Source: Methyloceanibacter stevinii
Lineage (GTDB): Bacteria; Pseudomonadota; Alphaproteobacteria; Rhizobiales; Methyloligellaceae
Assembly (NCBI RefSeq): GCF_001723355.1
Contig: NZ_LPWE01000010.1
Location: 310,001 to 374,000 of the forward strand
Direction of reading: 5' to 3'
DNA: 64,000 bases
Shown here: positions 28,801 to 44,307 of the stretch, piece by piece
How the letters are laid out: each line of letters starts with the position of its first letter
Numbering within the stretch: position 1 is the stretch's first letter
Made by a program: the position numbers and the translations under genes
Notes under the pieces: model-generated
What the model saw: only the letters and a program-made list of their open reading frames with translations
Told to the model about the DNA's origin: nothing
The model's database searches: none

Positions 28801-29174
28801 TTCGGTTGCTCCTCCCGAATTATCCGGACGGCTCGTAGGATTTGTTCCTGCGCGCCAAACTTGCCCCCTTGGGGCGTGACGTCGGCGAAGCACTCGCTGG
28901 CTAGCTTGTCCGTGAGCGCGATGTTCCGAGGGAAAGTCGAGTTGGGAAGAAGTGCCCAGACGCGGGTTCGAAACGAAGTCAACACTCTGACAAACCGAGG
29001 GCCATAGGGGCTCCCGACGACTGGGATGCTACAGAGTGTCACGCTGCTTGGTGTTCCAGACCTCTCAGAGAAGATTGTGCGCCGACTGCGAAACGCATGT
29101 CTGGGTTTTGGGGAATTTATCCCGACTTTGTGCAACACATGTTCCCCAGTGGGTTCCCGGGGCATGGGGAAGAT
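28801..29174. other. Intergenic region upstream of xoxF
   Basis: About 370 bases between the end of the orphan regulator and xoxF, both on the minus strand. It must hold the xoxF promoter. A ribosome site (GGAGG, read on minus) is next to the start. A short GCCCC-CTT-GGGGC hairpin lies at 28863-28875. No gene is visible. Confidence 0.6.
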
Positions 29175-29897
29175 CTAGCCGGTTTTTTTGGAACCTTTGG
29201 CAAGCGGGCGCGCAACATTCGGGGGTGCCGGAAAGTTCTGAACCGCGAAGTGCACCAATTCCTGCAGCGATTGCACGCCAAGCTTCGGTTTCAGGCGATT
29301 GCAAATGTGAGCAACGGACTTGTAGCTGAGGGCGAGATTGTCGGCGATTTGCGTGTAGGACTTCCCATCCGCAAGTAGAGAAAGGATGAAACGTTCCCGG
29401 GACGATAGGGCCTCGAGGGCCAACGTCTTGGGTTCGCGATTTCTGAGGAACGCGAGATCGGACGCCAGGATCCGACTCACATAGGGAAGTCCCTCACGCA
29501 CCGTCGCTAGCGACATCGCAATCTCGTCGTTCGGTGCGTCCTTCACAACATAGCCATTCGCGCCCACTTTCAGCGCTTCGTGTGCAATGCGCGGATCGTC
29601 GTACATGCTGAGCACGAGGATCGGCACGCTCTCGTCGTAGCGGCGGAGCCGCCTGATGAAGGACAGCCCCGCAAGCGCGCCGGCGCCCATGGCCAAGTCC
29701 ACGATGACGATAGCGGGGCGCCTGGAGCGGCAGAACCTGAAGGCTTCGGCGAAGCTTTGCGCGTTGCGAATGACCGTGCCGCGGGTCTCTTCGATCAGCA
29801 GGCGAATACCGGCGAAGACGACCGGATGATCGTCGACAAGCAGAATGACATCGTCCGAGTCAGTCTGCCGATCGTTCTGGATTTCATCATTCGGCAC
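29175..29897 (-). CDS. NarL/FixJ-family response regulator (orphan, MoxX-like)
   Basis: A 240-residue regulator. The receiver domain begins ILLVDDHPVVFAGIRLLIEE and has the phospho-acceptor in IVIVDLAMGAGALAG and the conserved Lys in GYVVKDA. A LuxR-type helix-turn-helix follows: SSRERFILSLLADGKSYTQIADNLALSYKSVAHICNRLK. It resembles the MoxX-like regulator at 46939 through both domains (GLSFIRRLR, LKxGANGY, VQSLxEL). No kinase gene adjoins it. It starts with GTG. Its position just upstream of xoxF suggests control of xoxF or the mxa operon; this is inferred. Confidence 0.88.
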   Translation of the reverse strand: MPNDEIQNDRQTDSDDVILLVDDHPVVFAGIRLLIEETRGTVIRNAQSFAEAFRFCRSRRPAIVIVDLAMGAGALAGLSFIRRLRRYDESVPILVLSMYDDPRIAHEALKVGANGYVVKDAPNDEIAMSLATVREGLPYVSRILASDLAFLRNREPKTLALEALSSRERFILSLLADGKSYTQIADNLALSYKSVAHICNRLKPKLGVQSLQELVHFAVQNFPAPPNVARPLAKGSKKTG

Positions 29898-30187
29898 CGG
29901 ATCTCAGTTCGCCCCGCTTCGAATCGCCTCGACGGGGAAATGCTAGCAGAGGGTGCCATGCCTGATATTCCAGAGCGCCTGTAGAAAAACGGGAAGCGTC
30001 ACTCATCGCGTTGGCAAGGCGAGGAACAATATTCGCCAACGCCGGGATCGGGGACGACATCGCACCGGCGACGCGGTGAGATCAGAGGTCGAGGCTCAGC
30101 GCAGGGCGCCGCGAGACCGGCCGCTCGTAAGACAGCACTCCGACCGCCGGTTCTTCCAGGCGGACACCGTGCGTTACACGGGTTCGA

Positions 30188-30562
30188 TCAGATGCCGCGC
30201 GCGACGCTGAGCCCGTCGAAGGGCGTGATCCAAGATGCCGTCCAGCCCAAGCGCCCGTCCTCGGCGAAGCGAAGACCGGCAAGCATGAACAAGGCTCCGG
30301 ACTGATTCTTGGTCTTCTCGACTTCCACGACGGCGTAGCCGATGAAGCGTCCGCAGACTTCAGAGCCTGCAGCCTTGTTGACCACATTGACCGCGATGGG
30401 CTCCGTCTTGCCCGCCGACAACTCCGACGCAAGAGAAATGGCCTGCGCCTCGGTCTCGCACAGCATGGCGTTGACTTTTGAAGGAGAGCTGGCCTCGCCC
30501 GCGACCACGGGAAGGGCCGCGAAGATGCCCGCCAACGCAACTAAGAGAGTTTTTGCCTGCAT
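30188..30562 (-). CDS. Hypothetical exported protein
   Basis: A 124-residue protein with a clear signal peptide (MQAKTLLVALAGIFAALPVVAGEA) and two cysteines that could form a disulfide (LCETEAQ and EVCGRFIG). The ATG at 30562 is chosen because it directly precedes the signal peptide; the frame is open upstream to 30739 but that part is hydrophilic and unlike a leader. The mature part is small, with an IGYAVVEVEK beta-like stretch. No family is recognised. About 290 bases separate it from the regulator downstream. Confidence 0.7.
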   Translation of the reverse strand: MQAKTLLVALAGIFAALPVVAGEASSPSKVNAMLCETEAQAISLASELSAGKTEPIAVNVVNKAAGSEVCGRFIGYAVVEVEKTKNQSGALFMLAGLRFAEDGRLGWTASWITPFDGLSVARGI

Positions 30563-30867
30563 GGATAGCCTGTCCTGGTTCCTGCAAATTTGCGTTGAGG
30601 CAAAATTGTCAACATCACCCGGCACCAGGTCAAGAACATCCTGGGGGTTGGCAGGAAAGTTTGCCACTCTCGTATTGGCACTAGTCTGGCCCTGTTTCGT
30701 CCCTTCTTGCTTGGAATTTCGGCCATTTTCACTGGGCACTTCCGAGCTCTGAGCCCTTATGTCCTAGGCATTCTTCCACCGGGAGATTTGCGGGAGATGG
30801 CATCGCTACCAGGGCCTGCGATCGTCTAAGGGAAGACTCTTGTGCCCCCCGAAAAGAGAGTATTCCC
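30563..30867. other. Intergenic region between two divergent exported-protein genes
   Basis: About 305 bases between outward-facing genes, so it should hold two promoters. Nothing further was recognised. Confidence 0.55.
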
Positions 30868-31491
30868 ATGTCCATTCGTATTCCGGCTCTTCGCGCACTG
30901 TGTCTGAGCCTCGCCACGTTCCTCGCACTTGCCTTCATCAACGCCGCGCATGCGCAGGGGCTTGCGGAAGGGGGCTTCGATCCTGCGGACCTCGAAGCGA
31001 TGACCGCTTCCGTGCGTCAGGTGGAGCTCACCGAGGACAACGTGACCCGGCTGATCGCGTCGTTCCCGGAGATACGGAAGACGGGGGCAAAGTTCTCCAA
31101 GACGCAGCTGCCGGAGAAGCCGCCCCTACCGGGCAGCGGCGACTCGGACCTCGATGCCCTGCCGGCCGACAAGCATGCCGCCCTCGAAGCGGTTGCCCAA
31201 AAGCACGGCTTCAAGAATCTGGAAGAGTGGTCGGACACGGCAGGGACCGTGGTCCGCGGATATATTTTCCTGGCCCAAGGCAAGAAGCCCGGCGCGACCG
31301 ACACAGCTCTCCGCTTGAACGTCGAGCATGCCGAACGCAATCCGAATCTCACCGCGGAGCAAAAGGCCGACATCATCGAGATGTATCGGCGGATCGCGTC
31401 CAGCCTCAAGCGCCTCGAGCCGTCCGACGAGAACTACGAGATGATCGTTGCGATGAAGGACAAGCTCGCGCCGATCATGGATCCGAACTAG
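30868..31491 (+). CDS. Hypothetical exported protein
   Basis: A 207-residue protein with a signal peptide (residues 1-29, ending AAHAQ). The mature part is largely helical and charged: an LTEDNVTRLIASFPEIRKTG segment, a helix with KHGFKNLEEWSDTAGTVVRGYIFLAQG, and LTAEQKADIIEMYRRIASSLKRL. The pattern resembles small periplasmic helical proteins, but no family is recognised. Its 3' end overlaps the protease gene on the opposite strand by 17 bases. It is the only plus-strand gene between 22.5 and 44.8 kb. Confidence 0.75.
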   Translation: MSIRIPALRALCLSLATFLALAFINAAHAQGLAEGGFDPADLEAMTASVRQVELTEDNVTRLIASFPEIRKTGAKFSKTQLPEKPPLPGSGDSDLDALPADKHAALEAVAQKHGFKNLEEWSDTAGTVVRGYIFLAQGKKPGATDTALRLNVEHAERNPNLTAEQKADIIEMYRRIASSLKRLEPSDENYEMIVAMKDKLAPIMDPN

Positions 31492-32377
31492 TCGGCCCGT
31501 AGCCAAGCGAACGCGCTGTCTCTTCGATGAACGGAAGGTTTGCGGAAAGCGCCGTGGCGGCGCTCTCGCGGCGACCAAAGACCGCGGCCAGTTCCGGCGG
31601 CAAGCCCCGCTGAGCCGAGATGACGCCGACATAGCGCAACACCTCGTCGTCGTCCTCGATCAGAAGGGCACCACCGCTATCGCCCGGCGAAACATTCTCA
31701 TCCATGCACCATAGCGTCTCGTGCAGACCTGCCTCTCGATCCAGCCGGCTCTTGAAGCACTCGGCTGCGTCTTTGATCTTGACGGGCAGATAGCGGCGCA
31801 CTCCCGCGTTGCTGCAATCTTCGGCCGCAACGCAACTCAGCCCCCCATACGCCACAAGAACGCCCTGGCGTCCGGGCCCCGTCGTCGCGGGGCGTGGCAA
31901 CGAAGGCCCCATCGCGTTCACCTCGCCGAGCGGCAGTTCGACATCGATCGGCGCCGCCGTCACAAGGATTGCCATGTCATGGGGAAGCCGGGCGGTTCTC
32001 CATTGGCTCGTGTCGTTCTGGCGCCACTCCGGTGCGACCTTAACGGCTTCCACGGCATAGGATCGCATGCGCCCCTGCTTGAACACATGTACGAAGAGTT
32101 CTTCGGGTTGCAGATAGGAGTCGACGTAGATGCGCTTGCCCAATGCAGTGGCGACATGCTGCACGCAGTGCGCCGAGGTTACGACGACGCGAGGATAGAG
32201 GACCGTGCCCGAGCAGATCATGCGGCCGCGCTGGGCGATCTCCACGACGAACGGATAGCGCTCATCGCGATCCTCGATGCCATTGGGAAGAGCGCGTGCC
32301 GGAACCCCCGGAAGTGTGATCGCAACCAGAATCCCCAGGCAAAGCGCGATGTCGAGGAAGTGTGTCGGGCGCGGCAT
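31475..32377 (-). CDS. Trypsin-like serine protease (S1 family), exported
   Basis: A chymotrypsin-fold protease with a signal peptide (about 1-29). The triad is visible as H70 (TSAHC), D134 (LPHDMAIL) and S234 (GDSGGAL). Cysteines at 55 and 71 fit the first disulfide, and C224 is near the active Ser. It begins 12 bases after the stop of the YVTN gene and is on the same strand, so it is probably the last gene of the mxa operon. It is not a standard mxa component. Its substrate is unknown; processing of an Mxa protein would be a guess. Confidence 0.85.
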   Translation of the reverse strand: MPRPTHFLDIALCLGILVAITLPGVPARALPNGIEDRDERYPFVVEIAQRGRMICSGTVLYPRVVVTSAHCVQHVATALGKRIYVDSYLQPEELFVHVFKQGRMRSYAVEAVKVAPEWRQNDTSQWRTARLPHDMAILVTAAPIDVELPLGEVNAMGPSLPRPATTGPGRQGVLVAYGGLSCVAAEDCSNAGVRRYLPVKIKDAAECFKSRLDREAGLHETLWCMDENVSPGDSGGALLIEDDDEVLRYVGVISAQRGLPPELAAVFGRRESAATALSANLPFIEETARSLGYGPTSSDP

Positions 32378-32389
32378 CGGCAGCGCTCT

Positions 32390-33361
32390 CTACTCGGCCG
32401 CGGCGATGGCGAGGCCGCGAATTCCTTCGCCCACGGCGATGCGCTTCAGTTCTTCTCCCGTCTGGCCGTCGAGGACGGAGATGTCGCCCGACATCCAATT
32501 GACTACATACAGGCGCCCGCCATCGGGGAGCATGCCCATGCTCTCGGGATACTTTCCGACCTTGGTTCGTTGAACGGGATCGAGCGAGGCGGCATCCAGA
32601 ACCTTCACGGTGCCCGACTGCTGGTTCGCCACGAACACCCGCTCGCCGTCCGGCGAGACCGCGACGCCATACGGCATGGCGCCGGTCCGCACGGTCCCCA
32701 GCGTCTCCAGAGAAGCCGCATCCAAGACTGAGACGTCGCCGCTTCGGACATTCGCCACGTAGAGGCGTTTCCCCGCAGGCGAGACGGCCAACGCGAACGG
32801 CGCCTTGCCGACCTTGACCGTGCCCACGACCTTTAATGCGTCCGTATCGATCGCCGTGACGGAATCGTCCTCCCGGTTCGCCACAAAGACACGGCTGAGC
32901 TGCGGGGCAAATGCCACATGCGCCGGCGCGCGGCCAACCTCGATCTCCGCGAGGACCTTGCCCGTCGCACTGTCGACGACCGACACGAGGTTCCTGTTCC
33001 AGTCACTGACGAAGAGGCGCCCGTCGTCGGAGGCGGCTATCCCGAACGGCGTGCCGGCGATGGTGATCGTGCGCGGAGCGTCCGGCATGCTGGGATCCAG
33101 AACGTCGATCCGGCCGATCTCGGGATAGGTGACATACAGCGTGCGCCCGTTCGGCGCGGCGGCGATGATGGCCGGCCCCCGTGCGACCGAGATCGTTTCG
33201 ACCGTCTCGTCGGTCGCCGTGTCGATCACCACCACGCGACCCGCCTCTTGGTTGGTGACATAGAGGCGCGGCGCGGCGGCGGCGTTCACCACAAACAAAG
33301 TGGCGAAAAGCGCCGCAAAGATTGCGGCCCCGGCGGCAATAGGTTGCCGCGCCACGGTCAC
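32390..33361 (-). CDS. YVTN-type beta-propeller protein in mxaE position
   Basis: Exported protein with signal peptide (TVARQPIAAGAAIFAALFATLFVVNAAAA). About seven propeller repeats follow, of the type PRLYVTNQEAGRVVVIDTATDETVETI and GKRLYVANVRSGDVSVLDAASLETLGTV. GTG 33361 is the best start, seven bases after a GGAGG that lies at the end of mxaD. It directly follows mxaD, where mxaE lies in methylotroph operons, but assignment as MxaE rests on position. It resembles the xoxF-linked propeller at 22575 in repeat type. Confidence 0.8.
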   Translation of the reverse strand: MTVARQPIAAGAAIFAALFATLFVVNAAAAPRLYVTNQEAGRVVVIDTATDETVETISVARGPAIIAAAPNGRTLYVTYPEIGRIDVLDPSMPDAPRTITIAGTPFGIAASDDGRLFVSDWNRNLVSVVDSATGKVLAEIEVGRAPAHVAFAPQLSRVFVANREDDSVTAIDTDALKVVGTVKVGKAPFALAVSPAGKRLYVANVRSGDVSVLDAASLETLGTVRTGAMPYGVAVSPDGERVFVANQQSGTVKVLDAASLDPVQRTKVGKYPESMGMLPDGGRLYVVNWMSGDISVLDGQTGEELKRIAVGEGIRGLAIAAAE

Positions 33362-33363
33362 CT

Positions 33364-33897
33364 CTATTCCTCCGCCTTCTTCTTCAGCTCTTCGAGTCCC
33401 GCCTTGTAGAACTTGGTTACGGCTTCGATCGCCGCCGCATCGTTCTGTTCCTCCGAGGGGAAATTGCCGGTGTCGGCGCGATACAGGCGCGCGTCCCATG
33501 TGACTTCGCTGCCGCCGTCCGCGCCCGGCTTCACGGCCAGGGTGGCGGAATAGAAGCTCACGGGGAACGCTTCGATGTCCGGCGTATCGAGGCGGTAGGA
33601 GTACGACATCTCCTCCTCGACATATTCATCGAGACTGTCCTTGAGCTGGCCGCCATCGCGCAGAACGACCGTTCGTTCCGCACCCGCCTCGTTGCCGCCG
33701 GTCCCCATGCTCGTCTCGACGAGCGGGTTCCACGACACGAGGCTGTCGAAATTCTTGACCAGGTCCCACACCTTTGCGGGCGGCGCAGCAATCGCGATGC
33801 CTTCTTCGACCTTCTGTGGTGTGGGCCCATGCGCCGCTGCGGACGCAGCACCGAGCAGGAGGAAAGCATGCAGCACGGCTATTCTAAACAACGTCAT
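33364..33897 (-). CDS. mxaD: Methanol oxidation protein MxaD (SRPBCC fold)
   Basis: Periplasmic protein thought to help electron flow between methanol dehydrogenase and cytochrome cL. A signal peptide (1-22) is followed by an SRPBCC/polyketide-cyclase-like domain with KVEEGIAIAAPPAKVWDLVKNFDSLVSWNPLV and TWDARLYRADTGNFPSEEQND. The length of 177 residues matches MxaD. Its start overlaps the mxaL stop (ATGA). Confidence 0.9.
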   Translation of the reverse strand: MTLFRIAVLHAFLLLGAASAAAHGPTPQKVEEGIAIAAPPAKVWDLVKNFDSLVSWNPLVETSMGTGGNEAGAERTVVLRDGGQLKDSLDEYVEEEMSYSYRLDTPDIEAFPVSFYSATLAVKPGADGGSEVTWDARLYRADTGNFPSEEQNDAAAIEAVTKFYKAGLEELKKKAEE

Positions 33898-34904
33898 GGA
33901 TAAACCTCATTCAGTGTTGGTTTTGAGTGTGGGCGGCGGCGTGCGATGCGCTCCCGCAGCGGCAGGACGCCGAAAAGAATGACGAGAAGAAGCAGCGCCA
34001 AACCGGCCGGGTAGGCGCGAACGTCCGTCGCGACCCGCACCTCTCGGCCCGGCGTGACCCGCTCGAAGTCCTTAACCAGCGCCCCTGTGCTTCCCAGATG
34101 CGCGTAAGTCAGCCCTGTCACAGCGGCGATCGCTTCCAGGTGCTCCTCCTTTACGGAGCTCATGTGATTGTTGTTATCGACGGGGAAATCGCCGAAGGGG
34201 GCCTGACGCGGATGCCAGCCCGGACGGCTTGAAGCATCGGGGGGCGGCGGCCCGAAGCGATTTTCCTGCAGAACGTCATACGGCCCCAGGTTGCCGACCT
34301 CGCGTCCCGAGTCGTCATATTTCAGCAAGGGGACCAAAGTCTTTCCGCCAACGCCGACGATCAGACCGGGCACCTCTCCCGGCTTGCCCTCGAAGGGCGG
34401 GAGCCCCGTCCAGGGGAGCGGCGGCGCTTCATGGCCGTCCGTGAAGAACACCACCGCGTCGTCGAATGTCTTGGCGACGGCCAATGCGTCGTAGACGCCG
34501 AGCGCCACGTAGCTGTCGCCCTCCCATCCCATGCGCCAATCGAGCGCATCGATCGCGGAATCGAGACTGGAGAAGTTTTCGCAGACCTCAATCGGCTCGA
34601 ACAAGACGAAGACGCGGCGCGCCGTGAAAATGCCGAGCCCCAGCCTGCTTTGACACGGCAGCTCAGCGATGAGGCCTTCCAATCGATCCTTGACGAAATC
34701 GAGCCTGCTGACCGGCTGCCCGTTCAGAACCCCATCGCGGGCATTCATGCTTGCCGTCACATCGACGAATGCCATCACGTCATAAGCTTTTCGCGTCAAC
34801 GTCACGCGCGGCAGGAACAAAGCGACGACGACCAGAAGCAACGCAGCGGCGAGCAGCCAGAAGCGATGCTCGTGGATGGCGTAGCGTAGCGGGAAGCGGC
34901 TCAT
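33894..34904 (-). CDS. mxaL: MxaL, VWA-domain membrane protein
   Basis: Part of the MxaACKL machinery linked to calcium insertion into methanol dehydrogenase. The N-terminal helix (about residues 15-33) is followed by a von Willebrand A domain whose MIDAS-type motif is DVTAS (48-52), with VVFFTDGHEAPPLP later. A C-terminal helix (AGLALLLLVILFGVLPL) ends the protein. The ATG at 34904 overlaps the mxaK stop by four bases, which decides the start over an upstream frame extension. Confidence 0.9.
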   Translation of the reverse strand: MSRFPLRYAIHEHRFWLLAAALLLVVVALFLPRVTLTRKAYDVMAFVDVTASMNARDGVLNGQPVSRLDFVKDRLEGLIAELPCQSRLGLGIFTARRVFVLFEPIEVCENFSSLDSAIDALDWRMGWEGDSYVALGVYDALAVAKTFDDAVVFFTDGHEAPPLPWTGLPPFEGKPGEVPGLIVGVGGKTLVPLLKYDDSGREVGNLGPYDVLQENRFGPPPPDASSRPGWHPRQAPFGDFPVDNNNHMSSVKEEHLEAIAAVTGLTYAHLGSTGALVKDFERVTPGREVRVATDVRAYPAGLALLLLVILFGVLPLRERIARRRPHSKPTLNEVYP

Positions 34905-35518
34905 GGCTCTCCCCGCGGAACTCCCGGCAAGTCGCTCCAAAGGTCCTTGCGCGGCTCCTGCTGCATCGGCTCCTCGGTCTGCACGATTGTCGGCAGATCC
35001 CGCACGAGCCGAGCGGCGACATCCAGATTGTATTTCACGTCCCAGGCGCCGGGATCGAGGCGGAGCGCCTGCTCGTAGTCGGCCTTGGCGAGATTGACGA
35101 GCGATGTCGCCTTGTCGAACTTGCCCTGTTCGATCGCGGCGAAGGTCGTCCTGAGGCGCGCATTGCCGTCGTCGTACAGCATGGCGACGCGCGTCTCGTC
35201 GTCGGCGCGAAAGTTCGCCTGATCCAGGAGGACCTGCGCCTCGCCAACCCTATCGCGCTGGAGGAGATAGTAGGCGCGCGCGAACAGCACCGGCGGCGAC
35301 GCGGTGTCGGCACGAATCTCGACATTCTGCCCGGCGGCCAGCGCGGCGATCGTGCGGTTGTCGTTCCAGGCCTTGTACCAGTTCCACGCCGACGAGATCG
35401 CGAGCGCCAGGCCAATGGCAAGCAGAAGCCACACGAAGACGATGCGCGCGGCATGGATTGCGCCGAAAGCGCCGCGCAGAAGCCCTCGTGTGCGGACTGA
35501 GTGCCGGGCGGCCGTCAT
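34901..35518 (-). CDS. mxaK: MxaK
   Basis: A 205-residue membrane-anchored protein of the MDH maturation set. It has a single N-terminal helix (IVFVWLLLAIGLALAISSAW, about 26-45). A periplasmic part with TPR-like helices follows (LFARAYYLLQRDRVGEAQVLLDQANF, ATSLVNLAKADYEQALRLDPGAWDVKYNLDVAARLV). Position between mxaC and mxaL, with four-base overlaps at both ends, fixes the identity. Confidence 0.88.
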   Translation of the reverse strand: MTAARHSVRTRGLLRGAFGAIHAARIVFVWLLLAIGLALAISSAWNWYKAWNDNRTIAALAAGQNVEIRADTASPPVLFARAYYLLQRDRVGEAQVLLDQANFRADDETRVAMLYDDGNARLRTTFAAIEQGKFDKATSLVNLAKADYEQALRLDPGAWDVKYNLDVAARLVRDLPTIVQTEEPMQQEPRKDLWSDLPGVPRGEP

Positions 35519-37281
35519 TGGGCTTGCTCCTGCAGGCCGGTCGCGGTGTCGAGCCCCTTCAGTCCGCTCAGCGTGGCGCCATCGAGATCGGCATTGGAGA
35601 AGTCGGCACCGGCGACATTCGCTCCATCGAGCTTGGCGCCGGACATCTTCGCCCAGTTGAACCGCGTATCGACCAAGGTGGCATCGCGGAGATCGGCGAA
35701 AGTGAGAACGACATGGACAAGGTTCGAGCCCGTGAGGTCGGCGCCCTCAAGGCTAGCCCCGGCCATGTCGAGACGCACCGGAACCATGCCTTGATTGGCG
35801 GGGTCCGCGCCGAGATCGGCGCCCACCATCTTGACCTTGTTCAAGCGCGCCTTGGCCAACTGGCCGATGATCCGCGTCTTGGACAGATTGGCGCCCGTGA
35901 GGTCCGAACCGTTCATGACGATGGCGAACATGCTTGCGCCTTCGAAGTTGGCGCCCGAGAAGTCCGCCTCGTTGGCGACCATGCGATTGAGGTTGGCGCC
36001 CGCGAAATTTGCGCCCTGCACCATGGAGCCACTCAAATTGGCTGCGAACAGATCGGCGCGCTTGAAGTCGATACCGGAGAGATCGAGCCCGGTGAGATCC
36101 CGCCGCGACAGATCGGGCCGGTCCTCGCCAAAGGCTTCGAGAACCGCCAGGAGCTGCTCGCGCGTGACTTCGGCGCCCCGTGCCGGGTCAGTGGGTGCGC
36201 TCGCAACCGCTAGAGCGCAGAGCACAAGACCGAGACTCGCGTGACCGACACGGCCTACCCGTATCCCCGGCTGCGAAACTCTCACCTCGGCGAGCTTGGC
36301 CAGCACGAGAAGAATCAGGGCACCGAGGGCAATGCTGTAGGCGAGCGCCGACAGGTCCTTTTGCGGAATGCGCTCGTGATAGCGCATGGGGCGCCGCTCG
36401 AGTTTGTCGATCGTGGCGATCGCCTCTCCGACGGCGGATGGGTTTTCCACCTCGAAAGCCCGGTATGGAATCTTGAGGTTCTCGAAGAACAGATTGAGGT
36501 GACGCTCCGGCATGGCCCGAGGCGTGTCGGGCTTGTCCGGATCGGGCGCCTCGAAAATGCCACGCGAGCCTTCCGTGCGCAGGAAGATCCAGTACAGGTT
36601 GACCGGCCGCTTCAGAAAGGCGGCCTCGAGCTTCTGCTGCATCTTGCGGTCGATGACGGCTGCGCCATCCGAGACCAGCACGATGGCGCGGTTCGCAACG
36701 CCCCCGGCCATGTCGTCGACGGACACGATATCCGCGTCGTGCATGGACTGCGCCATGGCGAGCCCCTTGCCGACATTGGTAAGCGCGAGGCCCGGCTGGA
36801 CGATGGCGTCGATGGCGGCAAGCGTCGCGTCTTTATGATCCGACAGCGGCAACACGAACATGGGCGCCGTCGAGAAGGCCGTGACGCCGAAGCGGTCGTG
36901 CTCGCGGGTGGCGACGAACTGTTTCAGGAAGCGCCGCGCCGCCGCCGATTTCGATTCTTCGCCGCTGCGTGTCGGCGCCTGGCCGGCGAACGTGTCGTTC
37001 ATGCTCGCCGAGCGATCGAAGAGCAGTACGATACTGGCGCCTTCACCGGTTCGCTCGATGCTTTGGCCCTTGACGTGGAGCCCCGCCAGCCCAAGCACGA
37101 GTGCGGCGATCGCGACAGCGCCGAGCACGCGCAAGGCCACGTCGATGCCTTGCGAGAGCGGGTCCGGTTTAGCTGCCCGCAACGATGGATAGGGATCCGC
37201 CTCACGCGCCGCGGCCAAGAGTGGCAGGAGTGCCAACGGGAGCAGCAACAGAACCCAAGGATGGCTGACGGCTAGATTCAT
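35515..37281 (-). CDS. mxaC: MxaC (VWA) with an added C-terminal pentapeptide-repeat domain
   Basis: Residues 1-340 match MxaC: an N-terminal helix, a second helix near 50-70, a VWA domain with MIDAS motif DRSAS (89-93) and AIVLVSDGAAVID, and a third helix near 312-332. A signal-peptide-like hydrophobic stretch follows at 348-362. Residues about 389-580 are then continuous pentapeptide repeats (ADLFAANLSGS, ANLNRMVANEADFSGANFEGASM). The total of 588 residues is well above the roughly 350 expected for MxaC. The frame is unbroken, so the fusion is real as sequenced. It overlaps mxaA and mxaK by four bases. Confidence 0.88.
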   Translation of the reverse strand: MNLAVSHPWVLLLLPLALLPLLAAAREADPYPSLRAAKPDPLSQGIDVALRVLGAVAIAALVLGLAGLHVKGQSIERTGEGASIVLLFDRSASMNDTFAGQAPTRSGEESKSAAARRFLKQFVATREHDRFGVTAFSTAPMFVLPLSDHKDATLAAIDAIVQPGLALTNVGKGLAMAQSMHDADIVSVDDMAGGVANRAIVLVSDGAAVIDRKMQQKLEAAFLKRPVNLYWIFLRTEGSRGIFEAPDPDKPDTPRAMPERHLNLFFENLKIPYRAFEVENPSAVGEAIATIDKLERRPMRYHERIPQKDLSALAYSIALGALILLVLAKLAEVRVSQPGIRVGRVGHASLGLVLCALAVASAPTDPARGAEVTREQLLAVLEAFGEDRPDLSRRDLTGLDLSGIDFKRADLFAANLSGSMVQGANFAGANLNRMVANEADFSGANFEGASMFAIVMNGSDLTGANLSKTRIIGQLAKARLNKVKMVGADLGADPANQGMVPVRLDMAGASLEGADLTGSNLVHVVLTFADLRDATLVDTRFNWAKMSGAKLDGANVAGADFSNADLDGATLSGLKGLDTATGLQEQAQ

Positions 37282-38197
37282 GAGGCCCTCCGTTCCGCTG
37301 CACTGAGCTCCGCGCCGAGCGCTGCCATCGCCGGCAACGGCATCGCCTTTTCAGCGCCGCTCACATCGTTTGCGAAGAAGGCCTGGCGGGAGGCAGCAAA
37401 GAACCGATCGATCTCGCGCTCTTGAGCGCGGAACACCCCGTGGCTTTCCAGAAATCCGCGGACATCTTCTGCGAGAACACGGCGCCCAGCGGAGGCATCG
37501 AAGGCCCGGTGCAGATCGAGGAGCCCCGCGCGATAGGCCTCGTCATCGTTCAGGCGTGCGAGGGACCGCAACCGGCGGGAGGCGCGCGCGAAGGGCCGGT
37601 CGGGCCTTGCGCGAAACGGCCACCACGCCCGATCGTAAGCCAGGAAGATCAGCGCCAACCCTGCGAGCCCGAGGCCCACGCCGAAAAGAATGCGATCGCG
37701 GCGCGTGGACACCGCTTGCGGTTTGGCGTCGGGCCTCAGATAGCCTTCCGGCCCCTCTGCCGGCACCTCCGGAATGACTTCCCGCAGCGGTGCCATGATG
37801 AATTTGAAGGGCGGCACTTTGGCGACGGCGACGTCGTCGCCATCCTTGAAGCGAAGCTCAAATGCCGGCAGGTAGCGCTCGGCCGGCGACAACGGCACGT
37901 AGAGCGTTTGGTAGACGAGCTTGAGGCGGTAGCGCGTCGCTCCGGTCTCCTCCCGTTCGGTCACATCGACCGAACGAAGGTCGAGCCAATAGGCCAGACG
38001 GCCGGGCTTCGGCTGGGATGCCGCTTCGAGGACGTAGGGTTTGGCGACGTCAACATGCACTTCGCGAGTCAGCAGATCCCCGACGAAGTAACCGAAGCCG
38101 CGCGGCTCGACCGTGCTGACAGACAGACCGGCGATGCGGGCTCATCGGCCGCGAATGCCGGCGTCGAAAGCAGCAGCGCAAGCACAAACGCGATCAT
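37278..38197 (-). CDS. mxaA: MxaA, frameshifted in this sequence
   Basis: Protein of the calcium-insertion/maturation set. An ATG at 38197 overlapping the mxaS stop starts a signal peptide (MIAFVLALLLSTPAFAADEP). The frame then breaks near 38116-38140 and continues one base off as STVEPRGFGYFVGDLLTREVHVDV, the expected MxaA sequence. One base is missing. A transmembrane helix (ILFGVGLGLAGLALIFLAY) lies mid-protein, followed by a cytoplasmic helical part (RLNDDEAYRAGLLDLHRAFDASAG). Read literally, the frame from 38197 would give only a 40-residue peptide. Confidence 0.85.
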
Positions 38198-39082
38198 CCC
38201 ACCTCACCCATGAGATACGCGCCGAACCTGTCCCAATCGATCTTGCCGACAATCTCGAACGGAGGACGGCCGTAACGCATGGCGAGCGAGCGCAGGCGCT
38301 TGGATCGCTCCGCATCATCGGCGATCAGCGCCGCCCGCAAGGCGGGCCGCATCACATAGAGACGCCTGCCACCCGTCTCGAGATCGGCGAACGACACGAG
38401 GCCGTAGCGCGGCAGGTCCTCCAGCTCACGGGGATCGCGCAGCACGATCGGAATCACATCATGTCCGGCCAGGGCCTCGAAGATAGCTTCGATCGTGTCC
38501 TCCGGCATGAGGAAGTCGGAAATGAGAAACACTAGCTTGCGGCGGCCGGCGATGATTGCGGCGGCATCGACAAGACCCTCCGCGCTGTCGCCGAGCTCGC
38601 CCTGCTCGGCCGGATCGAAGGCGCGCAGATAGGTCAGCATCTCCGCTTCGGCTCCCCGCGACGCGGTCGCCGGCCAGAAACACGTCGGAACAATGCGGCG
38701 GTTGGCGCCGATGAGGCCGAACGTATCGCCTATGCGCCGGGCTGACCCGGCCAGGGCCGCGCACAGATCCGTGGCACGTCGATGATGCGCGCCTGTCCGA
38801 GGAACCCCATGGAGGCTGACAGGTCCACGAGCGCATAGACGGTGATGGCGCTTCGCTGCGAAAACCGCTTGGCATAGAGGTTTCCGAACGGATCGCGCAG
38901 CGACACCCGCAGGTCGATCCGGCGCGGCTCCCGCGCGCGAACAAGAGTTCGTGATCTTTGAAGAGGCCGCCGGCGCCTTCCATCTTTCCTTGATGGGCGC
39001 CGATGCGCACGCCGGCCGCGCGCCAGGCCAGCCGGTAAGGCACCTCGATAGCTGAACTGGCTTCGTGAGAAGCCGTGCTCAT
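38194..39082 (-). CDS. mxaS: MxaS (DUF58 family), two frameshifts in this sequence
   Basis: DUF58-type protein that accompanies MoxR ATPases. Three frames must be joined: residues from ATG 39082 (VPYRLAWRAAGVRIGAHQGKMEG), then DLRVSLRDPFGNLYAKRF...VYALVDLSASMGFLGQA (VWA-like), then DLCAALAGSARRIGDTFGLIGANRR to the end (GRRKLVFLISDFLMPEDTIEAIFEAL). Single bases are missing near 38930-38940 and 38765-38785. It sits between mxaR and mxaA with four-base overlaps at both ends. Confidence 0.85.
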
Positions 39083-40137
39083 GGGGCCGGTACCTTCGCA
39101 AAGACCTCCGCGAACAACGCTTCGACCAGGGCTTCCCGGCGCAGCTCGTAGATCGGATCGAGGAAGACGCGGTGCGACATGATCTCCGGGAACACGGATC
39201 GGATGTCCTCCGGGACCACCATGTCGCGTCCATTGAGCCAGGCTTCGACACGCGCGCCGCGCACGAGATAGGCGATGCCGCGTGGCGACGCGCCACCCTG
39301 AACGAGGCGGGACATGTCGACACCGCTGATCTCAATACCGGCCGACACGGGATCCCGAATGGCGGACCATAGATCGAGGGTGTATTTCTCGAGCGCCTCG
39401 CTGGTTTGGATTCGCGCCTGTACGCCGCGCGCCACATCGTTCAACAGGCTGTGGTCGAGGACATCCTCCGTGACCGATTGCACCAGCGCATCCGCATCGT
39501 AGAAGCGCCGGTCAAAGGCCAGGGCGCGGCGAATCTCGCGATCCTTCGGAGTCTCCATGGAGATCTCCATGAAGAAGCGGTCGCGTGCGGCGGCGGGCAA
39601 TTCGAATGTCTCCTCACGCTCGATCCTGTTGCGGTCGGCGAAGATGAGGAGATGCGGAAAGAAGTACTCGCGATTGAACGCGGTGACACTGCGCTCGGCC
39701 ATGAGGCGAAGCAGCAATGAATGCACCTGAGGGCGGGCGCGGTTGATCTCGTTGAAGAAGAAGACAGTAAGATCCTCACCCTGGCGCAGGACGGGACCCG
39801 GCTCGACGCGCGGCCGCCCGTCCTCGTCGAGGTATGTGTGATAAATCAGATCGGCGGGCATGAGGTCGATCGTGCCCTCGACACGCTCGAACGCGCCACC
39901 GAGCGCGCGGGTCGCAGCCCGCAACAACGTCGTCTTGCCGACGCCGACATCCCCTTCCAGCAGCACATGGCCGCGCGCGAAGATCGCGATCGTCAGCAGA
40001 CGAAGGACGCGGTCCTGTCCGATGATTGTGTTCCTCAGGACGCCCTCGAACGCCAGGGCGCGGTCGCGCCAATTGGCAAGATCGATCCGTTGGTCCCGGC
40101 TGGCGGAGTCCGCAGGCGACTCAGCAAGACCTGCCAT
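39079..40137 (-). CDS. mxaR: MxaR, MoxR-type AAA+ ATPase
   Basis: MoxR-family ATPase, required for active methanol dehydrogenase. The Walker A motif is GDVGVGKTT and Walker B FFFNEINRA; RIEREETFELPAAARDRFFMEI carries sensor and arginine-finger regions. The ATG at 40137 is chosen because AGAGGGG lies seven bases upstream; an upstream in-frame start at 40176 lacks one. About 352 residues, typical. A terminator-like hairpin precedes it, separating it from mxaI. Confidence 0.92.
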   Translation of the reverse strand: MAGLAESPADSASRDQRIDLANWRDRALAFEGVLRNTIIGQDRVLRLLTIAIFARGHVLLEGDVGVGKTTLLRAATRALGGAFERVEGTIDLMPADLIYHTYLDEDGRPRVEPGPVLRQGEDLTVFFFNEINRARPQVHSLLLRLMAERSVTAFNREYFFPHLLIFADRNRIEREETFELPAAARDRFFMEISMETPKDREIRRALAFDRRFYDADALVQSVTEDVLDHSLLNDVARGVQARIQTSEALEKYTLDLWSAIRDPVSAGIEISGVDMSRLVQGGASPRGIAYLVRGARVEAWLNGRDMVVPEDIRSVFPEIMSHRVFLDPIYELRREALVEALFAEVFAKVPAP

Positions 40138-40214
40138 AGCAATGCCCCTCTGTTGCGTTGCGCCGCTCTCGCTCAAGCGCAGGCGCGCGGCACGACGTCC
40201 GAGTTGTCGAAGAC

Positions 40215-40245
40215 AAAAGGGGGTGCAGCCCTTGGCTGCACCCCT
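40215..40245 (-). terminator. Terminator-like hairpin between mxaI and mxaR
   Basis: On the minus strand, GGGGTGCAGCC, a 3-base loop and its perfect 11-bp complement (40220-40230 with 40234-40244) are followed by CTTTTG. The stem is strong and the T-run short. Partial termination here would give much more mxaFJGI than mxaRSACKLD mRNA. Confidence 0.75.
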
Positions 40246-40308
40246 CCCTCGAAAAACAGTGATGGACGCCCTGTTTCGAGGGTTAGCTCTGGGAGAAGCA
40301 AGACAGAG

Positions 40309-40605
40309 CTAGAGCTTGGAAACGTCGTAGACCCACTTGCCGGTCTCTTTGAAGTGCGCAGAACGCTTCGCGTTGCGTGCTTCCATTTCCTTGATGGAAT
40401 CGCCTTGCTTGGCGAGTTCCTTCGGGTCGTGCTTCGGATCGTACTTGGATCCTGCAACCTTCTCCGGATAGCCCGGCTTGGGCTCCCAGCAATTGCCGGG
40501 GGCCTTGCAGTTCGTGCCGTCATAGGCCAGAGCGCTTCCCGCCGTCATGGCAAGCGCAACAGCGCCCGCAAGCGCCGCGCCTGTAATGCGTAGTGTCTTC
40601 TTCAT
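40309..40605 (-). CDS. mxaI: Methanol dehydrogenase small (beta) subunit MxaI
   Basis: The 98-residue precursor has a signal peptide (1-27, ending SALA) and a lysine-rich mature chain starting YDGTNCKAPGNCWEPKPGYPEKVAG. Two cysteines form the usual disulfide. The C-terminal helix (DSIKEMEARNAKRSAHFKETG) wraps MxaF in the alpha2-beta2 enzyme. The gene lies between mxaG and mxaR, as in other methylotrophs. Confidence 0.97.
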   Translation of the reverse strand: MKKTLRITGAALAGAVALAMTAGSALAYDGTNCKAPGNCWEPKPGYPEKVAGSKYDPKHDPKELAKQGDSIKEMEARNAKRSAHFKETGKWVYDVSKL

Positions 40606-40630
40606 GGGTCAGTTCCTCCGTGCTCAGTCG

Positions 40631-41254
40631 CTAGTTTTCTGACGGTGTTTCCGTCTTCTTCTCCGCGCTGTCCGCACCTACTGCGGCCGTTTGCGCGGGA
40701 ATCTCGCAAACCAATTCTTCGGCTTCAGGTTTGTGGTGGTCGGGGTCGAAGGCAACGAAGTTGGCCTTCTGCTCGTCGGTGAGCCAGACGGCGCCTTCCA
40801 CGTCCCCTTTGTACAGGTGACGAACCCAGGCGATCACCAGCAGGATCTCGTCCATTGTTCTGGCTGACGCTTGCGGGCCCATCATGCTTCGGGCGCCGCC
40901 ATAGATCGTCTCGAACAGACCCTTGTCGGTCTGGTTCTTGGGATACGTCCAATAGTCGTCGTTGAGACCGGGGCCGAGCTTGCCTTCGCCAATATGGCCG
41001 TGACATCCCGAGCAAGCCGTGAGGAACACTTCCTCGGCTTCATGGAAGCAACTCTCAACCCCGTTATAGGGATTGTGGCCGGTCTTCATGAACTCTTTCA
41101 CGGCCGGCGTATCTCGGCCTTCCTCAGGCGAAAGGCTGAGATCGAGCGGCATGCCGGTGATCGTGTGAACAAGTTGAATCTGCTGGGCGAGAGCCATCAG
41201 CGGTATCAACGAAAGCGCGGCCACCACGGCTGCAACTTTAAAACCCTGCCTCAT
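40631..41254 (-). CDS. mxaG: Cytochrome cL (MxaG)
   Basis: Specific electron acceptor of methanol dehydrogenase in the periplasm. Signal peptide 1-23. One heme-binding CxxCH motif (ACSGCHGHIGEGKLGPGL) is present, and a Met ligand is likely in GGARSMMGPQ. PEEGRDTPAVKEFMKTGHNPYN precedes the heme site, as in known cytochromes cL. The length of 207 residues fits. It follows mxaJ by 77 bases and precedes mxaI by 25. Confidence 0.95.
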   Translation of the reverse strand: MRQGFKVAAVVAALSLIPLMALAQQIQLVHTITGMPLDLSLSPEEGRDTPAVKEFMKTGHNPYNGVESCFHEAEEVFLTACSGCHGHIGEGKLGPGLNDDYWTYPKNQTDKGLFETIYGGARSMMGPQASARTMDEILLVIAWVRHLYKGDVEGAVWLTDEQKANFVAFDPDHHKPEAEELVCEIPAQTAAVGADSAEKKTETPSEN

Positions 41255-41301
41255 TACGTTTCGCTTCCTTCTCGATTCTTCTTTCTCAAGTCTTCTTTAT
41301 G

Positions 41302-41321
41302 GCGGGCACCCAGACGCCCGC
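41302..41321 (-). other. Short stem-loop between mxaJ and mxaG
   Basis: GCGGGC (41302-41307) pairs with GCCCGC (41316-41321) across an 8-base loop, ten bases beyond the mxaJ stop. No T-run follows. Possibly an mRNA-stability hairpin. Confidence 0.4.
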
Positions 41322-41331
41322 ATGCAACGTC

Positions 41332-42216
41332 CTACGACTTCGTATCCGACGGCGGCTTCGTGGGCTCTTCGACCGGAATGCCTTCATCGATCAGAATCTC
41401 TTGGATCTGCGGTTTGGCCTTTTCCAAAGCCTCTTCGAGTTCGGCGAGAAGCTTCTCGTCGTCCTTGCGCACGCCCATGGACTGATCGAAATGGAACAGC
41501 ACCGGTTCGCCGTCGAAGCGGAAATTGTTGTCGGGCACGCCGGTCATTTTGAGCTTGCCGTCCGACTCCTTGACGTAGCGGGCAACCGATGGCGCGAAGG
41601 CGATGGCGACGTCGGACTTGCCGGACGACACATTGCTCACCATGAGTGCGGGATCGATCCGCAGGTACTGATTGCGGGAGCTCTTGAAGTTGGTCAGCGA
41701 CTTCACGTAGTTGAAGTTCTTACTGAAGAGGCCGTGCTTCACCATCATGACTTCGGCGGGACCGCCGGGCTCGTAGCCCACGTTGTTCGCCTTGGCGAGG
41801 TCCTCGCTATCGAACGCCTCGATCTCGAGCTTGGAGTTCGAGGGCTGCACGAAGACGTAGCCCGCGCGATAGTAGGGCGAAGTGGTGAGCACGCGCGGAT
41901 CGCCCGTATCGACACCGATCACCAGGTCGCACTTGTCCTTGTCGAGAAGGTCCCGCACCACGTAGATCGCAGGCCGGTCCTCCCACACGAATTCCACATC
42001 TCTGCCCATGGCCTCGCCGAGCGCCTTCGCGATGCGGTTTTCGAAGCCTTCCTCGCTCTTCAGGGAGTAGGGGTTTTCGTTGGCGCCCGCGCAGACCCGC
42101 AAGGGGGCCTCGTCGCTCTTTGCGCCGCTCGCCGCATTCGCAGGCCCGGCAAACAGGGCCACGGCGGCAGCGGTCGTCAGAAGCGCCTTGCCTAGGAAGT
42201 TGAATTTCATGTCCAT
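41332..42216 (-). CDS. mxaJ: MxaJ, methanol-dehydrogenase-associated periplasmic binding protein
   Basis: Solute-binding-fold protein thought to act in assembly of methanol dehydrogenase. A signal peptide (MDMKFNFLGKALLTTAAAVALFAGPANA) is followed by LRVCAGANENPYSLKSEEGFENRIAKAL, KCDLVIGVDTGDPRVLTTSPYYRAGYVFV and VAIAFAPSVARYVKES. The ATG at 42216 has AAGGAC upstream; an ATG two codons later is equally possible. It resembles the binding half of the xoxF-linked ankyrin fusion. Position between mxaF and mxaG is standard. Confidence 0.94.
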   Translation of the reverse strand: MDMKFNFLGKALLTTAAAVALFAGPANAASGAKSDEAPLRVCAGANENPYSLKSEEGFENRIAKALGEAMGRDVEFVWEDRPAIYVVRDLLDKDKCDLVIGVDTGDPRVLTTSPYYRAGYVFVQPSNSKLEIEAFDSEDLAKANNVGYEPGGPAEVMMVKHGLFSKNFNYVKSLTNFKSSRNQYLRIDPALMVSNVSSGKSDVAIAFAPSVARYVKESDGKLKMTGVPDNNFRFDGEPVLFHFDQSMGVRKDDEKLLAELEEALEKAKPQIQEILIDEGIPVEEPTKPPSDTKS

Positions 42217-42358
42217 CACATGTGTCCTTACAGACTGTCGTGTTGTTCGGAGGGCTCGACTTGGCGCGGCGACGACGGCGGACCGGCGGTTGCCGATCGT
42301 TCTCTTGTCCATCAGGCGGCCTATTCGACCCTCGCAATGTCTCGGGGAAGCGGGTTCC

Positions 42359-42384
42359 GCCAGGGCGCACCGAGGCGCCCTGGC
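42359..42384 (-). other. Perfect stem-loop between mxaF and mxaJ
   Basis: GCCAGGGCGC (42359-42368) and its exact complement (42375-42384) flank a 6-base loop, about 15 bases beyond the mxaF stop. No T-run follows, so it probably stabilises the 3' end of mxaF mRNA or acts as a processing barrier rather than ending transcription. Confidence 0.65.
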
Positions 42385-42399
42385 AGACCCTTCATCTGA

Positions 42400-44307
42400 C
42401 TAGGTTCCGTCCGTGATGATCTCGGTCGAGTACTCGTCGAGATTCACGTCCTCGCTGTACGGGCCTTTGCCGTCGAGCGAGAAGACCAGAAGGCCACCGC
42501 CCTGCTGGGTCCAGTTCTGCAGGTTGCGGAACGCACCCACGGCACCGAGACCCGCAGTCGGATCCTGGAGGTCGAACACCAGGCCAACACCCGGCCAACC
42601 GCCGACACCGTAGTACACTGCGACATACTGCGTGCCGTCGTGCTCATAGGTCATCGGATAGCCGATTCCGCCAGACGGCATCTTGAACTTCCAGAGAAGC
42701 TCGCCGGTGTCGGAGTTGCGGGCTTTGAGGTAGCCGTCGAGGGTGGGATAGAACATCACACCGCCCTTGGTCGCGAGCGTGCCGCCCCAAGCAGCGAAGC
42801 GCTCCATGACCGACCACTTGTACTTGCCCTCAGGCGCGCTGTAGGCCTTGACCTGACCGAGGCCAAGATAGTTGGCGCGGTCGCCCTTCGGACCCGGGTA
42901 CATCGACAGGGTGGCACCGACAAAGAACTGACCGGCGCGATAGGGAAGCATGAACGGCTCCCAATCCATGCAGATGTGGTTGATGGCGAGGTAGAAGAGA
43001 CCCCGCTCCGGATCGTACGAGTCGTGAGCTTGGTCGTGGTAGCCCATGGCCGACGGGCAGATGTCCTTGCCCTTGTGGTCCATGCGCGTGCCGTATTCCG
43101 GATTACGAACCGGAATACCCGTCTTCATGTCGACATGCGTCCAAACGTTGACGGTGTCATCCAGGAAGTCGGCACGGACAAGGTCGCCGTTGACGCGGTT
43201 CAGCGTGTAGATGATGCCGTTCCGGTCCGGATGGGTGACCAGCTTGAGGTCCTTGCCATCGATATTCTGATCGGAGAGCATCATCACGTTGACGCCGGCG
43301 TAGTCCCACTCGTCATGCGGGGTCTTCTGATACCCCCACTTGAGCATGCCGTCGTCGGCGTTGCGGGCCATGATGGTCATGGTCCACTTGTTGTCGCCCG
43401 GACGCATCGTCTCGTTCCACGGCGAGGGGTTACCCGAGCCGTAGTAGATCAGGTCCAAAGACGGATCGTAGGCATACCAACCCCAGTTGGTGCCGCCGCC
43501 GATCTTCCAGGCATCGCCTTCCCAAGTCGCAAGGCCGAGACCCTTCTGACCGTATTGGGGGTTGTCCTTGTTGAAGTCGTCGCCGATGCCGATTTCGGCG
43601 TCCGGACCCGTGGCATAACGGCGCCAGACCTGCTCGCCGGTCTTGACGTTGTATGCGGTGGCATAGCCGCGCACACCGAGCTCAGCGCCCGACGACCCGA
43701 CAATGACCATGTCCTTGACGACATAAGGTGCAACCGTAAGCGTCGACCCGACCTTGATGTCGGAGTTCTCGACCTTCCAGTACATCTCACCCGTGTCAGC
43801 ATTCAGCGCCACCACATGGCCGTCCAACTGGTTGGAGAGGATGAGGTTCGGCGTCTTGCCCTTATCGTCGGTCGGCCAGTAGGCGAGACCACGATTGACC
43901 AGGTCGCAGCAAGCCACGGCACGGGCCGCAGGATCCTGCTTCGGCTTGTACTGCCATTTGATCTTGCCCGGATTCTTGAGGTCCAGGGCATAGACGTTGT
44001 TCGGGAAAGAGCTGTTGACGTACATCACGCCATCGACCACGAGCGGCGTGCCTTCGTGACCATTCAGCAGACCCGTCGAGAAAGTCCAAGCCACACGGAG
44101 GTCCTTAACGTTCCCCGTGTTGATCTGATCCATCTCACTGTAGTTGTCCGCCGTGTAGTCGAGACCCGGCATGACGTAGTTTTCTGGATTCTTCGCCATT
44201 TCGACCAGACGGTCGTTGGCGTTGGCGGCCCCTGCTAGAAGGCCACCGAGGGCCAGCGCGACGCATGACGCCGACACATACCCACCGATACTGTGAAATC
44301 TCCTCAT
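42400..44307 (-). CDS. mxaF: Methanol dehydrogenase large subunit MxaF (Ca, PQQ)
   Basis: Periplasmic PQQ enzyme oxidising methanol to formaldehyde. Precursor of 635 residues with signal peptide (about 1-31). Adjacent cysteines C133-C134 ([10 protein letters not shown]) form the disulfide over PQQ. Calcium ligands E209, N293 and D335 (catalytic, in [10 protein letters not shown]) equal Glu177, Asn261 and Asp303 of the mature Methylobacterium enzyme with an offset of 32. A337 occupies the place of the lanthanide-binding Asp, so this is a calcium enzyme. Tryptophan-docking repeats run throughout. A GAGGG lies nine bases before ATG 44307. Confidence 0.98.

Follow-up and report, generated by a model that had tools for sequence, protein, structure and literature searches.

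Within a 64,000-nucleotide stretch of the Methyloceanibacter stevinii genome (hereafter the window), the frame of an mxaC gene runs on past the MxaC part into a long series of pentapeptide repeats. This raises two questions: whether the two parts are truly one gene, and what such an extension would do for MxaC.

The mxaC gene of the window and its product

The gene is a single open frame on the minus strand. Its stop codon overlaps the start of the next gene in the sequence ATGA. The features of the locus are as follows.

35515..37281, minus strand: mxaC with a pentapeptide-repeat domain, one open frame of 588 codons
36280..37281, minus strand: MxaC part, residues 1-334, with membrane helices at about 8-27, 41-69 and 311-336
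36658..37032, minus strand: VWA domain, residues 84-208 (Pfam PF13519 and PF00092)
37003..37017, minus strand: DRSAS, residues 89-93, a DxSxS motif
36259..36279, minus strand: basic linker, residues 335-341, predicted cytoplasmic and fast evolving
36193..36258, minus strand: fourth hydrophobic segment, residues 342-363, at the position of the signal peptide of standalone relatives
36130..36162, minus strand: capping helix, residues 374-384, from the model and the alignment
35542..36129, minus strand: right-handed pentapeptide-repeat beta-helix, residues about 385-580, from Pfam, the model and the fold match
35773..35811, minus strand: insert GADPANQGMVPVR, residues 491-503, with conserved D493, N496, Q497, M499 and R503
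34901..35518, minus strand: presumed mxaK, its start overlapping the fusion stop; TPR traces below the cut-off
37278..38060, minus strand: mxaA-like gene, directly upstream, overlapping the mxaC start

The names mxaA and mxaK are our assumption from operon order, and DRSAS is what we take to be a MIDAS-like metal-site motif. The mxaA-like gene has near full-length matches in two relatives, G009 and G004. The product resembles the MxaC of the mxaFJGIRSACKLD operon in its operon position between mxaA and mxaK, its three membrane helices and a VWA domain lying between membrane helices (VWA_2, residues 84-206, 45.3 bits), and it is 50-99% identical to the MxaC of 48 other genomes in a sample of the order. 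It runs on well beyond the last membrane helix; the length of 588 residues is the extension itself, and no MxaC feature is lost. The classic paper on mxaACKLD is reportedly Morris et al. 1995. No paper combining MxaC with a pentapeptide repeat was found in a literature search. PMC12482762 lists MxaC in methanol dehydrogenase maturation and assembly and labels it a methyltransferase, a label that is unsupported because the protein has a VWA domain.

The original prediction held that about 200 C-terminal residues are pentapeptide repeats preceded by a hydrophobic, export-like stretch, and both points were borne out. PF00805 matched the fusion with 106.7 bits (E 3.9e-31; cut-off 20.2), and the A(D/N)LXX repeats form a quadrilateral beta-helix according to Pfam, the model and the fold match. 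The hydrophobic stretch is the segment at residues 342-363; the span first assigned to the extension, 35515-36170, corresponds to about residues 371-588 and so covers the repeats without this segment. An AlphaFold model, the structure prediction proposed as a check, was built from 25 rows (mean pLDDT 72.3, pTM 0.45). It is weak in the VWA part and places helices at 8-27, 41-69 and 311-336, a fourth at 346-360, and then a beta-helix spanning about 385-580. The pLDDT of the beta-helix is mostly above 90; averaged over ten residues it is 88-98 throughout 371-580, apart from the loop at 491-500, the insert region, where the mean is 64. Foldseek returned solved pentapeptide beta-helices, and the best target-length TM-score among the matches listed was 0.83, for the designed solenoid 4yc5. 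The domain thus shares the right-handed quadrilateral beta-helix of HetL, MfpA and Qnr; identity to these and other solved pentapeptide-repeat proteins is 13-32% among the matches listed. Solved proteins of this kind act elsewhere, for example on gyrase. A gyrase-protecting role of the Qnr/MfpA type was rejected, since all NCBIfam scores fall far below the cut-off and an export segment precedes the repeats.

Hydrophobicity of the fusion protein peaks at about residues 7-25, 48-66, 310-328 and 342-363. The linker before the fourth segment is basic in the window and in two relatives, G006 and G019, despite the divergence of its sequence. Because a basic linker fits the positive-inside rule, the linker is predicted to be cytoplasmic and the repeats to be exported. 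Hydropathy, the same rule and the signal-peptide-like N-termini of the standalone relatives all point to a periplasmic repeat domain.

Distribution of the fusion and selection on the repeats

The domain pair was sought in other mxa operons in samples of the order and the phylum, and was found only within the genus. MxaC is present in 7 of the 17 genomes of the genus searched, and five of these seven carry the repeats on MxaC (G000, G009, G006, G019 and G005). The repeats are absent from the MxaC of G004 (346 residues) and G008 (352 residues). The mxaC of G003 runs off its contig. Of the 397 genomes that make up the order sample, 49 have an MxaC match. When the tails of the 42 MxaC proteins from outside the genus were inspected (23 + 19, one with 13 masked residues), none had the fusion, and 37 of them stop at most 34 residues from the position aligned to residue 334. 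The claim that known MxaC ends near residue 350 therefore holds for the order sample; the window protein differs from all 42, which end shortly behind the last helix, in continuing into a fourth hydrophobic segment and some 200 residues of repeats. In other genera, five MxaC proteins (L032, L034, L035, L036 and L242) have tails of 62-94 residues past the position aligned to residue 334, and these tails look like coding insertions of GC-rich palindromic repeats. The fusion was also absent from four further genomes of the phylum sample (G623, G626, G726 and G758), one of which, G726, has three MxaC-like genes. We conclude that the fusion is real, rare and of genus level, and that both of its parts are known kinds of protein.

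A tree of 11 proteins places G004, with full support, as the sister of the window and G009, nested inside the carriers. Three changes are counted on this tree, and holding the five carriers together was rejected (p-AU 3e-34). Since G004 lies among carriers, its sequence is most likely the product of a clean loss of the domain. No other close copy of the domain was found in G004 (one match, E 3e-8). The retention of an open mxaC after this probable loss suggests that mxaC can do without the domain, and an essential role of the repeats is not supported.

Where the domain is kept, purifying selection acts on it as strongly as on MxaC. The dN/dS of MxaC residues 1-334 is 0.02-0.13 in four pairs, and that of the repeats, up to a frame break in G006 and G019, is 0.04-0.13; for residues 511-588 it is 0.14 between the window and G009. 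The linker (residues 335-368) gave 0.30, 0.43 and 0.63 in the three computable pairs of four. The break in G006 and G019 is a change of one base at the same repeat site, AG-CTCGA (L072 about 7700; L073 about 7510), and downstream of it the repeat frame resumes with a dN/dS of 0.22 in G006 and 0.18 in G019. Because these values are still low, the breaks are either recent or errors. In G019 the mxaK, mxaL and propeller genes are broken too, which indicates sequence errors there. In G006 the repeat break is the only frame change among the mxa genes compared, and its propeller-gene match also holds an in-frame stop. A programmed frameshift at this site was considered and rejected; no slippery heptamer could be read, and no single motif explains the breaks. 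The fifth carrier, G005 (470 contigs, 80% complete), has a one-base offset in the linker and a second offset later, and no plausible new start was found. The whole frame is thus intact in only two of the five carriers, and those two are closely related.

These observations bear on whether the repeats do anything for MxaC. A secreted repeat gene could have been captured between mxaC and mxaK, fused by loss of a stop, tolerated, and now be in the course of being lost. The clean absence in G004 among carriers, the absence in G008 and the one-base breaks in G006, G019 and G005 would all be expected of such a neutral passenger. A passenger would not be expected to show a dN/dS as low as that of MxaC, maintained at 0.18-0.22 after the breaks, and the several broken mxa genes of G019 point to sequence errors there. 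We consider neutral carriage unlikely.

It is somewhat less probable still that the fusion serves to co-produce a free periplasmic repeat protein, with signal peptidase cutting after the fourth segment and the two parts acting separately. The fourth segment does sit where standalone relatives have their signal peptide, and plausible cleavage motifs were read in G005 (VSA/AE) and G019 (NAAA/G). Signal peptidase cleavage motifs follow an A-x-A rule; a good site of this type could not be recognised in G006, and the ASA of the window has a proline directly after it.

An assembly join was the refutation that the original prediction itself named, in the form of a stop and a separate start between the domains in related genomes. 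These were sought and not found: the junction is read through in G006 and G019, G005 has the one-base linker offset, and G004 and G008 have no repeat domain. The genus relative G009, assembled as a single contig, encodes a 588-residue MxaC of the same layout. Window positions 27964-43957 are 94.8% identical to it, with no indel within 35515..37281, which agrees with the claim that this frame is unbroken unlike other genes of the locus. In the window, mxaS (38194-39082) is split in two frames, having lost one base at about 38775 and another at about 38946 relative to G009; the two missing bases are probably assembly errors. Between the window and G019, the length of the linker changes by 12 bases net and the frame stays open. 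An assembly or sequencing artefact joining two adjacent genes might be suspected from the mxaS breaks and the G005 linker offset, but it is very improbable given the same uninterrupted frame in G009 at about 95% DNA identity and the read-through in G006 and G019 across a strongly diverged linker.

The exported pentapeptide family and its gene neighbourhoods

The fused domain falls within an exported pentapeptide family, whose members it resembles in its N-terminal export segment, capping helix, DLSGLDLSG start and N-Q-x-M insert. This family was defined by an alignment and a 58-row quick tree with SH-aLRT support only. The phylum sample was searched with a 23-row alignment, from which L173, L176 and L177 were left out; no more than six candidates were scored per genome, so the counts are lower bounds. 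At least 21 matches at 176 bits or more were found in at least 13 genomes, and the next matches reached at most 131 bits. By window numbering, D400 and R470 are invariant in the 23 rows, and the insert residues D493, N496, Q497, M499 and R503 occur in 87-91% of them. The N-Q-x-M insert is present in 49 of the 58 tree rows. Among the nine misses, L120 is merely an incomplete sequence, the sister genes L130 and L131 carry a T-N-A-N-M variant, and the insert is absent in L159, L160, L173, L176, L136 and L148.

The five fused domains form one clade in the 58-row tree (99*). Their sister group (93) consists of standalone exported proteins of G320 and G201, about 52-53% identical, of which the G201 copy holds a stop. 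A wider clade of 13 rows (99*) holds the fused rows, the G320 and G201 proteins, Methylococcales proteins, L122, L162 and L163. The fused domain thus descends from this exported family.

Several standalone relatives lie near genes of methanol or alcohol oxidation. In L122 (genome G259), L162 (Alphaproteobacteria MAG VGDY01000024) and L163 (Methylocystaceae MAG WSXZ01000002), the gene is on the same strand as an mxaF match and ends about 2.1-2.2 kb before it. These three proteins share with the fusion an mxa locus, an identical ADLGADPANQGMVPVR and 41-44% identity, whereas each is encoded by a separate gene upstream of mxaF and the domain here is at the end of mxaC. Among 45 genomes searched, a close relative beside mxaF was found only in G259. 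In G002, the gene of a standalone relative (42-43% over the domain) begins within the last part of pqqE, which gives the order pqqB-C-D-E-repeat gene (L076 7793-9708), with a PQQ-dehydrogenase further along; the pqq names were confirmed with NCBIfam. On a plasmid of Ruegeria sp. AD91A (L302 1-24744), an annotated family gene adjoins a quinoprotein relay hydrolase and is separated from xoxF5 by 3.3 kb; about 7-12 kb on lie genes for BatD, a TPR protein, two VWA proteins and DUF58. This last set resembles mxaRSACKL, and the family gene lies between it and the xoxF5 cluster. G242 encodes a distant exported pentapeptide protein (37%; L303 3253-3957) lacking N-Q-x-M, 6.5 kb upstream of mxaF on the same strand; it is a second kind of mxa-linked repeat protein. 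G030 has at least six family members, two of them in tandem (L113 8921-10528), and one PQQ-dehydrogenase match (E up to 1e-40).

Most family loci show no mxa, pqq or PQQ-dehydrogenase neighbour. No mxa or pqq genes stand beside the sister genes of G320 and G201, whose neighbours are unrelated, and G320 has only a partial dehydrogenase-like match about 22 kb away. The plasmid copies of Methylocella tundrae and Methylorubrum populi had no such neighbours among the features listed. With 15 marker proteins, and with many loci cut by contig ends, 5 of 17 family loci in the sampled genomes had any marker, two had a PQQ-dehydrogenase and 12 had none; L126, a weaker match and one of 18 stretches, was left out of this count. 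A genome scan, made up of the best 80 matches and possibly leaving out the window's own relatives, gave any marker at 9 of 25 named family loci, one of them (L171) through a 54-bit match to MxaR that is probably a generic ATPase, a PQQ-dehydrogenase at seven, and no marker at 16. Other pentapeptide loci of the scan, mostly from taxa that possibly lack PQQ-dehydrogenases, had any marker in 1 of 55 (L189, truncated at a contig end, carries two markers and is possibly a family member) and a PQQ-dehydrogenase in none. The difference in PQQ-dehydrogenase neighbours, 7/25 vs 0/55, has a Fisher p of 1.5e-4, the loci having been sorted into family and control post hoc by identity and insert. Similarly, when PQQ-dehydrogenase genes were located across whole genomes, 5 of 20 family genes proved to be no more than 20 kb from one vs 0.46 expected (P 6e-5), with three of the five from one genus, a limit set after the distances were known, and genes counted by hand with fragments merged.

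A possible counterpart is PedD of Pseudomonas (PP_2673, QedB), which lies beside the calcium PQQ-dehydrogenase gene pedE and is likewise a predicted-exported pentapeptide protein tied to a PQQ-dehydrogenase. PMC12997753 states that PedD adjoins pedE and is uncharacterised, suggests a biofilm role, raises metal chelation as an idea untested there, and reports that a truncation mutant in P. putida U grew poorly with short-chain alcohols. According to PMC7188995, PP_2673 falls with lanthanum on glycerol and 2-phenylethanol, like PedE, and PMC12875217 describes qedB as the small-operon partner of qedA1. PedD is standalone and the domain here is fused; the likeness is one of setting and description, and PedD was not recognised among the matches listed from the phylum samples, plasmids and genome scan.

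A possible role in dehydrogenase maturation

The explanation that we favour is that, in an ancestor within the genus, the gene of an exported pentapeptide accessory protein of PQQ-dependent alcohol or methanol dehydrogenase systems was joined, without a change of frame, to the 3' end of mxaC. The former signal peptide would now be the fourth membrane helix, and the resulting membrane protein would hold its VWA domain next to a rigid beta-helix in the periplasm. The rod may use its conserved insert loop to dock a periplasmic partner of the dehydrogenase system, either the MxaFI apo-enzyme or a maturation partner, at the site where the MxaR-type ATPase and the VWA proteins act. Such docking would raise the efficiency of maturation without being essential. 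To this statement as a whole, a periplasmic repeat rod beside the MxaC VWA domain that binds a methanol dehydrogenase-system partner through the insert, we assign a probability of roughly 0.5; its structural part is very likely to be correct. That the family at large works in PQQ-dehydrogenase maturation is a more tentative proposal.

The proposal of a rigid periplasmic platform for dehydrogenase assembly therefore stands in part. The fusion is genuine, the repeats should be periplasmic, and standalone relatives are found near mxa, pqq and xoxF genes, but most family loci lack such a neighbour, and the part of the domain in maturation is inferred. Calcium delivery, the other function proposed, is unsupported.

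Taken with the standalone genes that lie before mxaF and behind pqqE, the MxaC fusion points to a task at the dehydrogenase itself instead of the biofilm role or metal chelation suggested for PedD, and it hints at the function of an uncharacterised protein that other bacteria export separately and in some cases encode near this type of enzyme. Possibly, the N-Q-x-M proteins, with PedD probably among them, are a periplasmic factor dedicated to the maturation or scaffolding of PQQ-dependent alcohol dehydrogenases, and in this genus one of them became tethered to the MxaC VWA machine. If so, the fusion would reveal the partner of a protein of unknown function in Pseudomonas. To our knowledge, the way in which the MxaR/S/A/C/K/L proteins gain access to their substrate in the periplasm is still poorly understood, and the fusion offers a handle on this question. 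Its value lies in the link that it makes between the maturation of methanol dehydrogenase and an exported family that is uncharacterised.
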